DNA of 13,727 bases. Source: an uncultured Porphyromonadaceae bacterium (GTDB taxonomy: Bacteria > Bacteroidota > Bacteroidia > Bacteroidales > Muribaculaceae). Position numbers and translations under genes: made by a program. Position 1 is the stretch's first letter. Every line of letters starts with the position of its first letter. The notes below the pieces were generated by a model. The model ran no database searches. It saw only the letters and a program-made list of their open reading frames with translations, and was not told where the DNA came from. Below, piece by piece: positions 1,552 through 12,100 of this stretch. Location of the stretch: positions 1 to 13,727 of the forward strand of contig CAMWQY010000036.1 in NCBI GenBank assembly GCA_947176355.1, written 5' to 3'.

Positions 1552-1585
1552 TTTGCGAAAATTCATACATTTTTCATTAATTTTG
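1552..1585 (+). promoter_or_regulatory. Promoter of the kinase-RapZ / nucleotidyltransferase unit
   Basis: The -7 element TAATTTTG (1578-1585) matches the Bacteroidales consensus exactly. A TTTG at 1552-1555 could be the -33 element, but the 22-base spacer is slightly longer than the usual 19-21. The expected start of transcription is near 1592, giving a leader of about 48 bases. Its -33 lies only 4 bases from that of the pgk promoter. Confidence 0.6.
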
Positions 1586-1639: not shown

Positions 1640-3049
1640 ATGACTGATTCCATTGTATTCAATGCCGAGATTGCTCTTAAAAATCTATTTGAAGAGTATT
1701 ATAATGAATCTGTGATAAAGATGGTGCCAATCACGGGGAGTGGATCCGACCGTCTTTATTTCAGGATGCATGGAGAGGCATTTTCATGCATAGGCACTTT
1801 TGTCAGAGATTCTGCCGAGGGAAGATGCTTTGTGAGGCTTGCTCAAGATTTTTTGAGCCTCGGACGCGCTGTCCCCAAGGTATTTGCTGTCTCTGACGAC
1901 TTCCATTCTTATTTGCAGGAGGATTTGGGCGACAAGTCACTTTTTTCTTCACTAAATGATGAAGATGTCGAGTCTCTTGTTAAGGAAACGCTGACAAGGC
2001 TTGTCTCTTTGCAGAAGACCCCGGTTGATGTATGGAAATATGATACGATGAATAAAGATTTCTGCATAAGGCAAATTCTGTGGGATCTAAACTATTTCAA
2101 ATATGAATATCTGAAGCCTAAGGAAGTGGTCTATGATGAGGATCGTCTGGAAGATGATTTCGAACGCTTGGCTCTTTCTCTTGCCTCCGTATCGGATGAA
2201 TTTTGCGGGTTTATGATGCGCGACTGTCAAAGTCGTAATGTGATGCTGACGGCAAATGGTCCGATTTTCATTGACTTTCAAGGAGGCAGAAAAGGACCTT
2301 CGATTTATGATGCTGTCTCTTTCCTCTGGCAGGCAAGGGCCGGTTTTAGTGACGATTTCAAGATGTCAATGCTCGATTTTTATAGTTCTGCTTATTGCGA
2401 TAATGATTCCGAGAAAAAAGAGCGAATGCTTTCTGATTTGCATGAAATGGTTCTTTTCCGGACTCTTCAAGTCTTGGGTGCATACGGATTTCGCGGTCTT
2501 GTACAAAAGAAGTCACATTTTCTGCTCTCTATTCCTAACGCTCTTGATAATCTGTCCGATCTAATATATAAAGGTATATTAGACAGCTACCCGGAATTAA
2601 AAAAGGTTGCAATAGCCATAGTAGCCGACAAGTCTTTAATAAATGAGAAATCAGATGGCAGACTTGTAGTAGAAATCTTTTCTTTTTCTTATAAAAAAGA
2701 ATATCCTCAAGATTTGAGTGGCAATGGAGGTGGATTCATATTTGATTGTAGGGCGCTTCATAATCCCGGTAGATACAAAGAATACAAGCAACTGACGGGA
2801 AAAGATCCTGAAGTTATTGAATTTCTCGAGAGAAGGGGAGAAGTTAGAGCTTTTCTGAAAGGTGCCTGGTCACTGACTGATCCTGCCATCGAACGCTATA
2901 TAACCCGTGGATTTACCCATATTCTAATAGGTTTCGGTTGTACTGGAGGGCAGCACCGATCTGTCTACAGTGCCGAGCAAACCGCTACTCATATTCGCCA
3001 ACTATTCCCTGAAGCAGATGTCCGACTCTCTCATATCGAACATCCTTAG
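1640..3049 (+). CDS. AmgK-like sugar kinase fused to RapZ C-terminal domain
   Basis: This 469-residue cytoplasmic protein has two parts. Residues 1-330 are an aminoglycoside-phosphotransferase-fold kinase resembling AmgK, which phosphorylates MurNAc (and GlcNAc) at the anomeric position in peptidoglycan recycling. They contain a SDRLYFR segment at 36-42, an EDLGD segment at 94-98, the catalytic loop RDCQSRN at 194-200 (Asp195, Asn200) and the metal-binding IDFQGG at 211-216 (Asp212). Residues 341-469 match the RapZ C-terminal domain: FDCRALHNPGRY at 368-379, TGKDPEV at 386-392 and GCTGGQHRSV at 433-442. In E. coli that domain binds glucosamine-6-phosphate. The Walker-type N-terminal domain of true RapZ is absent. 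The MurU-like gene follows after 27 bases. Domain identities are seen; the MurNAc substrate and sensing role are inferred, and another sugar or nucleoside substrate is possible. Confidence 0.85.
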   Translation: MTDSIVFNAEIALKNLFEEYYNESVIKMVPITGSGSDRLYFRMHGEAFSCIGTFVRDSAEGRCFVRLAQDFLSLGRAVPKVFAVSDDFHSYLQEDLGDKSLFSSLNDEDVESLVKETLTRLVSLQKTPVDVWKYDTMNKDFCIRQILWDLNYFKYEYLKPKEVVYDEDRLEDDFERLALSLASVSDEFCGFMMRDCQSRNVMLTANGPIFIDFQGGRKGPSIYDAVSFLWQARAGFSDDFKMSMLDFYSSAYCDNDSEKKERMLSDLHEMVLFRTLQVLGAYGFRGLVQKKSHFLLSIPNALDNLSDLIYKGILDSYPELKKVAIAIVADKSLINEKSDGRLVVEIFSFSYKKEYPQDLSGNGGGFIFDCRALHNPGRYKEYKQLTGKDPEVIEFLERRGEVRAFLKGAWSLTDPAIERYITRGFTHILIGFGCTGGQHRSVYSAEQTATHIRQLFPEADVRLSHIEHP

Positions 3050-3076
3050 ATTAATTTTACTAAAACTATCTGACAA

Positions 3077-3811
3077 TTGAAAACCATGATCATGTGTGCC
3101 GGATTAGGCACAAGACTCAAACCTTGGACTGATAAGCATCCGAAAGCCTTAGTTCCTGTAGGTGGTGTCCCTATGCTGCGGCGTGTCATAGAGCGTCTGG
3201 CAGATCAAGGATTTGACGAAGTGACAATTAATGTGCATCATTTCGCCGACCAAATTATAGAATTTATTCAAAAGGAAGAACTTCCTGTCGAGAATATAAA
3301 TGTTTCGCATGAGTCGGAGGAATTACTTGACACAGGAGGGGGAATTCTAAATGCAGAGTCTTTCCTCGCCGAAGACTCTCGTCCATTTCTCGTGCATAAT
3401 GTTGATATCTTGTCAAACGCAGATCTAAAAAAGCTATATGACGTTTTCGAGACTTCCGGCGCTCACATCATTCTCCTCGTGTCTGATAGAAATTCAGACC
3501 GAAGACTGGTGTTCGACAATGATCTTAATCTTAAAGGCTGGATCAATCTTAAGACAGGTCACATTCGTCCGGATAACCTCACTATTAATAAAGAAGACAA
3601 GATATTAGCATTCAGCGGCATTTATATGATGTCGCCTAAAGTTTTCCCGATAATGAAAAATAATGGTTTTTCCGGAGCTTTTCCAATTATGGATTTTTTC
3701 TTGTCAGACATCCCGGACCTCAAGATCAAGGGTATGCTCCAGGATGGTCTGGAAATTATCGACATAGGAAAGCCCGATACTTTGCATCGGGCTAACTTAA
3801 AAATTCAATAA
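3077..3811 (+). CDS. MurU-like sugar-1-phosphate nucleotidyltransferase
   Basis: This 244-residue protein of the NTP_transferase family would transfer a uridylyl group from UTP to a sugar-1-phosphate. Beside an AmgK-like kinase the likely product is UDP-MurNAc, as for MurU. Signature segments are GLGTRLKP at 9-16, PKALVPVGG at 22-30, LDTGGG at 84-89 (as in MurU), HNVD at 107-110 (metal-binding Asp) and DIGKPDTL at 229-236. The start is unusual. TTG at 3077 gives MKTMI, which lines up with the MKAMI start typical of the family, while the first ATG (3086) would remove three residues. I prefer TTG. The gene lies 27 bases after the kinase gene and is almost certainly co-transcribed with it. It overlaps the convergent small membrane gene by 7 bases. 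Substrate specificity is inferred; glucose- or mannose-1-phosphate enzymes share the fold. Confidence 0.85.
   Translation: MKTMIMCAGLGTRLKPWTDKHPKALVPVGGVPMLRRVIERLADQGFDEVTINVHHFADQIIEFIQKEELPVENINVSHESEELLDTGGGILNAESFLAEDSRPFLVHNVDILSNADLKKLYDVFETSGAHIILLVSDRNSDRRLVFDNDLNLKGWINLKTGHIRPDNLTINKEDKILAFSGIYMMSPKVFPIMKNNGFSGAFPIMDFFLSDIPDLKIKGMLQDGLEIIDIGKPDTLHRANLKIQ
3771..3793 (-). terminator. Hairpin inside the end of the nucleotidyltransferase gene
   Basis: AGCCCGAT (3771-3778) and its exact complement (3786-3793) flank a 7-base loop. Read on the minus strand the stem ends in GGGCTTTCC, a weak U-rich tail. It lies 11 bases beyond the stop of the 60-residue membrane protein gene and could end that transcript, although it sits within codons of the opposite gene. 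Function is uncertain. Confidence 0.35.
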
Positions 3812-9347: not shown

Positions 9348-11138
9348 TTAGTTAATCGTTATCACTTCTCCGTCGTAAGCAAATTCTACTCCGGGAGGTA
9401 AAATTGAGGCTATTTCTTCATGCTTGCCGAGATTATGGCATGCGTGAGTCAAATAGCAACGTTTTGGCTTGAGTTCCTCTATGAGGGCTAACGCCTCCGG
9501 AAGTATCAAGTGGGCAAAGTGCTCGTGGGTCACTCTAAGACAACTTAGGATAAGCACTTCGAGATTCTTGAGCTTCTCCTTTTCTTCATCAGATATTGTC
9601 TTTATATCTGTGATATATGCAAAGTCTCCAATCCTATATCCGTATATTGGAAGACTTCCGTGCATCACTTCAATCGGCTCAATCTTTAAGCCTTTGATCA
9701 TAAATGGATGGAGTCCGACCTCCTGCAGATCGAGTTTTGGAACGCCCGGATATGGGTGCTCTCTGAAGCAATAGTCTAAGCGCCTTCTTAGATCTTTTGC
9801 CGTCTGAGGATTGGTATAAATTGGAAGATCGTTTTCTATGCAGAAAGGGCGTACATCATCTATCCCTCCGACATGGTCATAGTGCTGATGTGTGAGTAGG
9901 ATGGTATCGATTTGACTCAGTCCGATGCGAAGTGCTTGCTGGCGAAGGTCGGGCGATGCATCTATCAATATTTTCATTCCGTGGGTTTCGACAAGTATGG
10001 ACGCTCTCAGCCTCTTGTCTTTCGGGTCCTCCGACATACAGGTAGGACAAGTGCATCCTATTTCCGGGACGCCTTTAGATGTACCGCTACCAAGAACGGT
10101 GACTTTAATTCTTGAGTCAATGTAGTTCACCTCCGGACGAAGCTCTATGCCATATTTGATCTTTACTGTCTTTATGATAAGATCAGCAAGTTGCGCTACG
10201 TCTTCGCCTGTAGCATTACCGGTATTTGCTATTACAAGAGCTTGTTTTGGCCATACCTCAGCCCCTCCTATTTTGTATCCTTTTAGTCCGGCATGATCTA
10301 TGAGCCATCCGCCGGAAAGCTTTACTTTCCCTTCTTGATCAGAAGGGTATTCCGGCATTTCAATGCCACGTGGCTTTATTTCCTGCTCAAAAAAATATTT
10401 ATTTACCTCAGGATTTTTGAAAAATGAGCCCGCGCTCCCTATTAGTGCAGGATTGGGCAATTTGCTGTCGCGAAGTCTGATCACTTCATCTGCAACTTCG
10501 CGTGTAGATGGAATCCTCCCTAATGTCTCTGCAAATTTCTTAAGCGGTGCATATTCAAGATTGTTTGCTCTTGTGTCGTATCTCAGTCTGTAGCTTACCT
10601 GCATCACAATGAGCTTCCCTTTTGCTTTATTTTTGAAAATGGAATCCCGATATCCAAACCTGCAATCCGCTTGCTTTAGTGTCACAGTTTTCCTCGATTC
10701 TGTATCGAAACACACTACTGAATGAATGAAATCTCCGGCTTCGGCTCCGTATGCCCCGACATTCTGCACTGCAGAGGCTCCCACTTCACCGGGTATTCCA
10801 GCCATGTTTTCCAACCCGGCGATGCCGTGGCTAATGCACCAATCTACGAGATCTGTCCATTTTTCGCCCGCGCCGGCTATGACGAAGACATTTTCCCGAT
10901 CCTTTACGTATTTTTGTATCCCTTTTATCCTGGAGTGAAGCACAATCCCATTAAATGTGCTGAGGAATAGAAGATTCGAGCCACTCCCTATATGCAGGAA
11001 TTCATTGTTTATAAATTCCGGTGTGCGACTCAGTTTAAGGAGATCTTTTTCATCTTCATATTCAGCGTATATGGCTGCTTGGGCACTCACCTTAAAGGTT
11101 GTGAGGGCAGTCAGATCTTTATTATATTCTATTGTCAT
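9348..11138 (-). CDS. murB: MurB fused to a PhnP-like metallo-beta-lactamase-fold hydrolase
   Basis: One uninterrupted 596-residue frame holds two enzymes. Residues 1-341 are MurB, the FAD- and NADPH-dependent reductase that makes UDP-MurNAc. They show GSGSNLLF (51-58), the AGIPGEVGASAVQNVGAYG segment (113-131), GYRDS (162-166), GSFFKNP (237-243, catalytic Ser238) and the closing PEVNYI (335-340, Glu336). Residues 344-596 are a complete metallo-beta-lactamase-fold hydrolase of the PhnP type, with VLGSGTSKGVPEIGC (348-362), a GCTCPTC cluster (361-367), the metal motif THQHYDH (416-422), His493, Asp511 and THACH (564-568). Such proteins are often phosphodiesterases; the substrate here is unknown. 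Only about 5 residues link them. No ATG lies at the junction, though a GTG (Val337) could start a separate hydrolase. The gene overlaps the lipoprotein stop as ATGA, suggesting translational coupling. Confidence 0.92.
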   Translation of the reverse strand: MTIEYNKDLTALTTFKVSAQAAIYAEYEDEKDLLKLSRTPEFINNEFLHIGSGSNLLFLSTFNGIVLHSRIKGIQKYVKDRENVFVIAGAGEKWTDLVDWCISHGIAGLENMAGIPGEVGASAVQNVGAYGAEAGDFIHSVVCFDTESRKTVTLKQADCRFGYRDSIFKNKAKGKLIVMQVSYRLRYDTRANNLEYAPLKKFAETLGRIPSTREVADEVIRLRDSKLPNPALIGSAGSFFKNPEVNKYFFEQEIKPRGIEMPEYPSDQEGKVKLSGGWLIDHAGLKGYKIGGAEVWPKQALVIANTGNATGEDVAQLADLIIKTVKIKYGIELRPEVNYIDSRIKVTVLGSGTSKGVPEIGCTCPTCMSEDPKDKRLRASILVETHGMKILIDASPDLRQQALRIGLSQIDTILLTHQHYDHVGGIDDVRPFCIENDLPIYTNPQTAKDLRRRLDYCFREHPYPGVPKLDLQEVGLHPFMIKGLKIEPIEVMHGSLPIYGYRIGDFAYITDIKTISDEEKEKLKNLEVLILSCLRVTHEHFAHLILPEALALIEELKPKRCYLTHACHNLGKHEEIASILPPGVEFAYDGEVITIN

Positions 11139-12100
11139 TGTCTGAAATTAGTTAAAAGTCCATCTTCAAACATCAGGTATGTTCCATCATTATATTGCCA
11201 GATATCAAGCGTCTGAGAACGATTGTGCCCCGACCTGACTTCGTCAGGATTGCCAATGGAGAGTTTGCATTCCTCTTTTGTCATTCCCGGTCCTATTTTT
11301 CCCATCTGTATAAGCCTCCAGTTTTCATCTGAAATATGTTGATATTTCCCTTTAGGATCTGTCAAGAAGAAATCGGAGGCAAAGTTTCGGCTGTCATGCG
11401 CATCCGCAGTGTAGTTCATCCTTAAATAAGCTTCTTCACCATCTTCGCCTTTTATCTTGATATTAATCGGGAAATCTCCCGTGCTTGGCAATACATCTGT
11501 TATCGTCACTTTGGCATATTTCAAACCCGACAGTCGGTTGCCTTTGCTGTCATACCATAGATTGTTTTTCGTCCATACAGTCTTTCCCAATATCTTTTCT
11601 TTCCATGAGTCTATTAAGTCTAAGTCAGAGAGCAATGGAAGTTTACTGCTTTCGATCTCCTTCATCGCTTCTGAAGTCGGTTTCTTTGTCCTATAGCGGA
11701 AAGTGTTGGAGCCATCTGAAAATATTATCACACACTCTTCTTTGAGATCAGGATTGATATAGCTGTCGACTCCCGTAAAGGTCAATATTTTACCGGTTAT
11801 ATCTTCGCTTGCCGGAGAAGACATGAGCTCTGTCGGCTCAAAAATATAAATGGTTCGGTCAGACATAGCAAGAAATCTTTTCCCTTCCTCCCAGGAGGAT
11901 AGGGGAGTGCCGTGTAGGCTTTCCGCTAATGTCTGCTCAGCGCTTTTCGTCATCAATTTTACTTCCTCCTTGCTCATTTTTATCTTGGGAGTGCTTTCTA
12001 TTCCTGTGCTGCAAGATGAAAAAAATACTAATGACACACCCACGACAATCAATTGGCGCAGATATCCGACGATTTTCCTATTTTTTTGAAATGTATTCAA
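11135..12100 (-). CDS. Probable lipoprotein with C-terminal BamE/SmpA-like segment
   Basis: A 321-residue protein with a long basic N-region (Lys6, Arg8, Lys9, Arg15), a hydrophobic stretch at 17-27 and FSSC ending at Cys30, a plausible lipobox for lipidation and anchoring in the envelope. Residues 268-320 resemble the small BamE/SmpA fold: KIGPGMTKEECKLSIGNPDEV (split as 268-277 and 278-288), a WQY at 301-303 and a closing FEDGLLTNF. The middle (about 40-260) is predicted mostly beta and polar, and I recognise no family. It heads the unit that includes murB, and its stop overlaps the murB start by 4 bases. Function is unknown; the similarity to BamE is limited to one short motif region and does not mean it assembles outer-membrane proteins. 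Confidence 0.75.
   Translation of the reverse strand: MNTFQKNRKIVGYLRQLIVVGVSLVFFSSCSTGIESTPKIKMSKEEVKLMTKSAEQTLAESLHGTPLSSWEEGKRFLAMSDRTIYIFEPTELMSSPASEDITGKILTFTGVDSYINPDLKEECVIIFSDGSNTFRYRTKKPTSEAMKEIESSKLPLLSDLDLIDSWKEKILGKTVWTKNNLWYDSKGNRLSGLKYAKVTITDVLPSTGDFPINIKIKGEDGEEAYLRMNYTADAHDSRNFASDFFLTDPKGKYQHISDENWRLIQMGKIGPGMTKEECKLSIGNPDEVRSGHNRSQTLDIWQYNDGTYLMFEDGLLTNFRQ

Follow-up and report, generated by a model that had tools for sequence, protein, structure and literature searches.

What does the C-terminal domain of RapZ do when it is joined to a sugar kinase? The question is raised by a 13,727-nucleotide stretch of DNA from an uncultured member of the Muribaculaceae (contig CAMWQY010000036.1 of assembly GCA_947176355.1; "the window" in what follows), in which a single reading frame encodes an AmgK-like kinase and a RapZ C-terminal domain (RapZ_C) and is followed by a MurU-like gene (Table 1). 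There is no doubt about the domain fusion or the operon layout. The kinase part is matched by Pfam APH (aa 30–253), NCBIfam AmgK (aa 11–282), and PDB entry 3csv (aa 28–301), and a fold search with the predicted structure of the full-length fusion returns APH-type kinases as the top matches. An APH-type kinase fold with the catalytic D and N, as in AmgK, is thus present by profiles, alignment, and model; we take R194-D195, N200, and D212 to be the APH catalytic residues. The C-terminal part reaches 103.3 bits with PF22740 (gathering cut-off 27; aa 343–465), and both the model and its fold match back the assignment, although the score with the NCBIfam RapZ equivalog (90.3 bits) is below its cut-off of 244. 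The original prediction, made from the sequence alone, of an AmgK-like kinase with a full RapZ C-terminal domain and no RapZ N-terminal P-loop domain is confirmed: Pfam finds no PF03668 in the fusion protein, and there is no match to it in the window's genome, which is 74% complete. Also absent is the basic cluster of the RapZ RNA-binding tail, for which the consensus RxRxKNxQxRHRTxxKRK has been given (PMC7525490). The fusion instead ends in EADVRLSHIEHP (last residues LSHIEHP), which fits the proposal that the protein works without small RNAs.

Table 1. Features of the fusion gene and its surroundings (window coordinates)
Feature	Position	Strand	Basis
Promoter-like site, Bacteroides-type (TTTG ... 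TAnnTTTG)	1552..1585	+	Pattern match; 54 bases upstream of ATG
AmgK-like kinase–RapZ C-terminal domain fusion, 469 aa	1640..3049	+	ORF and profile matches
Kinase part, aa 11–303, APH/AmgK-like	1670..2548	+	Pfam, NCBIfam, and PDB matches
Kinase motifs R194-D195 ... N200 and D212	2219..2275	+	Invariant in 33/33 aligned fusions
RapZ C-terminal domain, aa 343–465	2666..3034	+	PF22740, model, fold match
N375-P376-G377; G377 at the position of E. coli RapZ H190	2762..2770	+	Alignments
C434-TGGQH-R440-S441, C-X5-R-S phosphate loop (E. coli C247 to S254)	2939..2962	+	Alignments
MurU-like sugar-1-phosphate nucleotidyltransferase, 244 aa	3077..3811	+	Profile matches

The MurU-like uridylyltransferase that had been proposed next door is indeed there, 27 bases downstream from the fusion. 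Its TTG start coincides with the M in aligned relatives; an ATG is also available at 3086. The pattern of the site upstream of the fusion, presumably the Bacteroides promoter consensus, occurs three times in the window when both strands are counted, compared with 0.45 expected from shuffles. Of 80 named loci, 49 have MurU no more than 1 kb downstream and on the same strand; in the others it is farther away (1), there is no room for it (2), or none was found by BLAST (28). Besides MurU, no neighbour is generally conserved across 21 loci, AnmK included, and PADLOC gave no match. We also read eight loci where the kinase occurs without RapZ_C (L057, L058, L185–L189, and L284): MurU is beside the kinase in L057, L058, L186, and L189, is 3 kb on in L188, and is not in the stretch read for the remaining three.

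The survey of Bacteroidota that the original prediction called for shows that the fusion is widespread, and often has MurU adjacent. RapZ_C was found in 24/198 Bacteroidota genomes, all 24 of which have the kinase. At these loci the two parts form a single frame in 20 cases and neighbouring genes in three, with one genome (G180) having no kinase nearby; MurU falls inside the fetched stretch at 18/24. Within Bacteroidales, 124/148 genomes carry RapZ_C and all 124 carry the kinase, with both on one contig (judged by eye between match tables) in every carrier except one, G283. The RapZ_C frame is at least 466 aa long in 114 of these 123, and the 30 Bacteroidales loci that were read all carry kinase and RapZ_C (30/30), with MurU in 16/30 of the short stretches fetched. 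In the window's own family (118 genomes), RapZ_C is detected in 109 at E 0.001 and in 108 over the cut-off. The idea of a rare or local fusion is ruled out by these counts from Bacteroidota and Bacteroidales. Named carriers include Parabacteroides chinchillae, Mediterranea massiliensis, Labilibaculum filiforme, and Cnuella takakiae, and the NCBI name of a Parabacteroides relative is "RapZ C-terminal domain-containing protein". Given this wide spread and the protein name, it is established that the architecture is ordinary for Bacteroidales and visible to annotators; our search of open-licence texts found no paper on the kinase–RapZ_C fusion.

Some genomes depart from the usual arrangement. Loci L009, L023, and L024 are natural splits, in which kinase and RapZ_C are adjacent separate genes, followed by MurU. 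In G180 (L055 7935–8336 and L056 7214–8191), which has AnmK and no MurQ, RapZ_C is its own gene on a contig different from that of the sole AmgK-like kinase match. Six genomes of the window's family, all from one genus (group g248: G362, G382, G397, G410, G421, and G431), are without RapZ_C.

The residues of the domain bear on its function. Conservation was evaluated on domains extracted by tblastn without a pattern presupposing the loop (134/134 loci, 131 distinct domains). In E. coli numbering, C247, T248, G249, G250, H252, and S254 are present in 131/131 homologues and R253 in 130/131; the loop is complete in 130/131, and C-X5-R-S is the signature of cysteine phosphatases. D182, R184, N188, and P189 are likewise found in 131/131, and a glycine-rich stretch directly before the FDxR strand is invariant in the 131. 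The position of H190, on the other hand, is occupied by Gly in 127, as it is in the window; three homologues have Tyr there and one has His. The predicted structure has strand, CTGGQHRS loop, and helix in that order, and the domain has in common with PTP/DSP cysteine phosphatases a C-X5-R-S loop set between strand and helix; no PTP fold is among the fold matches listed. A loop of this sequence points to catalysis no less than to sensing.

It should be noted that the likeness of RapZ to the PTP loop is already in print and is not new here. Khan and Gorke compared the RapZ pocket with the PTP phosphatase loop and proposed hydrolysis of GlcN6P (PMC7199280). The pocket of E. coli RapZ is described as H190, T248, G249, H252, and R253 (PMC5737377), with C247 close to it (PMC5737377, PMC9841335). 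The C247S exchange is reported to abolish E. coli RapZ activity, with a possible catalytic role mentioned by the authors, and after a GlcN6P soak the pocket is said to have contained a "likely chemically transformed product" (PMC9841335). NTPase and phosphatase activities have been reported for the RapZ homologue YvcJ (PMC7525490), and the same activities appear for another homologue, HpaP, in the title of a paper that this source cites (PMC7525490, reference list). Compared with RapZ of E. coli, YvcJ, and HpaP, the fusion is without the N-terminal P-loop domain and the RNA-binding tail, has Gly for H190 and an extra glycine-rich loop, and forms one protein with a sugar kinase.

The replacement of H190 and the invariance of the Cys raised the weight that we give to the fused RapZ C-terminal domain being a sugar-phosphate hydrolase, and it is toward this reading that we lean, tentatively, in preference to sensing. 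The domain would act as a cysteine-dependent hydrolase via the C434-X5-R440-S441 loop and strip the 6-phosphate from an amino sugar, with MurNAc-6-P as the prime candidate substrate. The free sugar would then be handed from the RapZ domain to the kinase half, which would phosphorylate C1 of MurNAc. From this product the MurU-like partner would make UDP-MurNAc, bypassing MurA and MurB. One protein would in this way do the job of Pseudomonas MupP plus AmgK. The Pseudomonas route is described as needing a phosphatase for MurNAc-6-P, the separate HAD enzyme MupP (PMC5371407), whereas the RapZ domain of the window is not HAD. A broader version is more doubtful, and we consider it unlikely: that the RapZ C-terminal domain is fundamentally a sugar-phosphate phosphatase whose C-X5-R-S loop is PTP-like, that the Bacteroidota AmgK fusion is a bifunctional MurNAc-6-P phosphatase/MurNAc 1-kinase filling the MupP step, and that in E. 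coli RapZ this enzyme has become a sensor.

AnmK is the enzyme that makes MurNAc-6-P. Were RapZ_C to carry out the MupP step, it should be needed wherever a genome has both AnmK and the kinase. Using presence sets transcribed by hand from printed tables, we found RapZ_C in all genomes with kinase and AnmK (16/16 of the Bacteroidota set and 93/93 of the Bacteroidales set; 109/109 in total). Conversely, AnmK occurs in 0/43 kinase genomes without RapZ_C in the Bacteroidota set (42 of which come from one family, where RapZ_C is absent genome-wide) and in 0/6 kinase genomes without adjacent RapZ_C in Bacteroidales (five families, G283 included); for the Bacteroidales set, Fisher's test gives 0.0003, uncorrected for descent. 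AnmK-positive, MurQ-negative genomes have RapZ_C in 7/7 and 83/86 cases, and the three exceptions, all Bacteroidales with AnmK and none of MurQ, kinase, or RapZ_C, are fragmented (280, 660, and 420 contigs).

The association is not strict in the other direction. AnmK is absent from 8/24 RapZ_C genomes and from 30/123 genomes with RapZ_C beside the kinase, the window's genome being in both groups, and in the window's family AnmK occurs in 2/118 genomes compared with RapZ_C over the cut-off in 108/118. A tree of 157 kinase domains implies 5 changes in RapZ_C and 23 in AnmK. A single supported independent pair differs in RapZ_C, with AnmK differing in the same direction in about 0.7 of pairings and never in the opposite one, and of the 10 supported AnmK pairs, an average of 9.7 show no change in RapZ_C. 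(G283 was finally classed as having a kinase without RapZ_C beside it; classing it with adjacent RapZ_C instead gives 4, 23, 1, and 9.8.) The tree-aware test does not reach significance, one RapZ_C-differing pair being too few. The strict rule that RapZ_C serves only AnmK is ruled out by the non-significant tree test together with the counts from the window's family. RapZ_C persists through most AnmK losses, so its role extends beyond the product of AnmK; given the family with RapZ_C and hardly any AnmK, the MupP reading needs another source of MurNAc-6-P there. The pattern would fit such a source (e.g., a kinase of the MurK type), a different phosphosugar as substrate, or plain sensing.

Sensing was the original proposal: the RapZ domain would bind GlcN6P or another wall amino-sugar phosphate and tune the kinase to which it is fused, giving a one-protein feedback loop. 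We regard this as possible, ranking it second after hydrolysis. The C-terminal domain of E. coli RapZ is reported to bind GlcN6P on its own, with a KD of 10 nM by SPR (PMC7073468), and RapZ_C stays with the kinase regardless of AnmK or MurQ, as a regulator would. The proposal was said to depend on the pocket residues, and the pocket is partly lost because H190 is replaced by Gly in the window and most homologues; the other four, T248, G249, H252, and R253, are kept. In E. coli, H190A is reported to abolish both the RapZ-promoted cleavage of GlmZ and the repression of glmS (PMC9841335). Moreover, the invariant Cys is not obviously required for mere binding, and the three loci with natural splits carry the two parts as separate genes.

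The best new support for sensing comes from a second fusion. In genome G283, where the kinase stands alone on another contig, RapZ_C is encoded together with a GlmR/YvcK (CofD-family) domain and, again, no RapZ N-terminal domain (L283 1789–3153, minus strand; RapZ_C at aa 1–117 with 113 bits, CofD-family at aa 138–407 with 285 bits). As in the window, a headless RapZ_C is joined to a wall-precursor protein, but here the partner is GlmR-like and RapZ_C is N-terminal. Among 120 homologues listed, 30 combine RapZ_C with the CofD-family domain, nine have both RapZ domains plus the CofD-family domain, and 81 have the CofD-family domain only; some are named YvcK or gluconeogenesis factor. GlmR (YvcK) is described as stimulating GlmS, being held back by UDP-GlcNAc, and binding YvcJ (PMC7525490). 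Joining RapZ_C to such a protein favours regulation of amino-sugar supply, although it is compatible with catalysis too. The GlmR fusion therefore raised the odds of sensing and slightly lowered those of hydrolysis, which had also come down because RapZ_C is tied to the kinase in genomes without AnmK.

The two readings differ in what they would mean. If the domain is catalytic, a protein of most sampled Bacteroidales would supply the missing phosphatase of anabolic wall recycling, and would offer a simple, RNA-free system for studying how the RapZ pocket acts on its ligand. If the domain is a sensor, the fusion would be a direct allosteric form of amino-sugar feedback.

The kinase and MurU-like proteins might act not on MurNAc but on another sugar (GlcNAc or a glycan precursor), with the likeness to AmgK and MurU only at the family level, and scores are indeed far below the equivalog cut-offs: 49.2 against 550 and 19.2 against 500 for the NCBIfam AmgK models, and 108.4 against 250 and 97 against 370 for those of MurU. 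Nevertheless, no NCBIfam models fit the two parts better than those of AmgK and MurU. MurQ represents the catabolic MurNAc route, and for this reason complementarity between kinase and MurQ is a prediction of the AmgK/MurU route. Counting the kinase as present at E below 1e-30, we found it in 57/58 MurQ-negative and 10/140 MurQ-positive genomes of the 198 Bacteroidota. Of those 57 kinases, 42 are from one family and distant (about 25%–30% identity); leaving that family out, the figures are 15/15 and 10/140. The contrast is weaker within Bacteroidales (110/117 MurQ-negative vs. 19/31 MurQ-positive). As in the AmgK–MurU recycling of Pseudomonas and Caulobacter, proposed also for Tannerella forsythia, an APH-type kinase is beside a MurU-like nucleotidyltransferase and is far commoner in genomes without MurQ; the differences are the RapZ C-terminal domain on the kinase and the low equivalog scores of both genes. 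The MurQ complementarity, together with MurU at so many of the named loci, supports the pairing and the salvage role originally proposed, and we judge it probable that the pair serves MurNAc salvage, and improbable that it uses another sugar.

A need of the branch for UDP-MurNAc is not implied, which is a point in favour of another sugar. MurA-less genomes forced onto the kinase (MurNAc auxotrophs) were sought among Bacteroidales, and MurA was found in 145/148; the three misses are the window's incomplete genome, one with 700 contigs, and one that is 92% complete. Tannerella forsythia is described as an auxotroph without MurA and MurB (PMC5790795) and is said to use AmgK and MurU (PMC7670621). 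It does not appear by name among the 80 named loci, and its name is also missing from the 120 homologues listed for the Parabacteroides protein, the majority of which are unnamed.

Least probable of all is that the RapZ domain is only a dimer or scaffold element or an RNA binder, as the E. coli domain is reported to dimerise on its own and to bind GlmY (PMC7073468, PMC7199280), but the fusion is without the RNA-binding tail, and if the domain were no more than a scaffold, conservation of the loop residues C, H, R, and S would not be expected.

Elsewhere in the window, a 321-aa frame (11135–12100, minus strand) has no Pfam match at E 0.1 and, by eye, a lipoprotein-like start. Beside it, a 596-aa single frame (9348–11138, minus strand) encodes MurB, with its FAD-binding and MurB_C domains, together with a domain of metallo-beta-lactamase fold (Lactamase_B_2, aa 389–565), and is the second fused wall-enzyme gene of the window.
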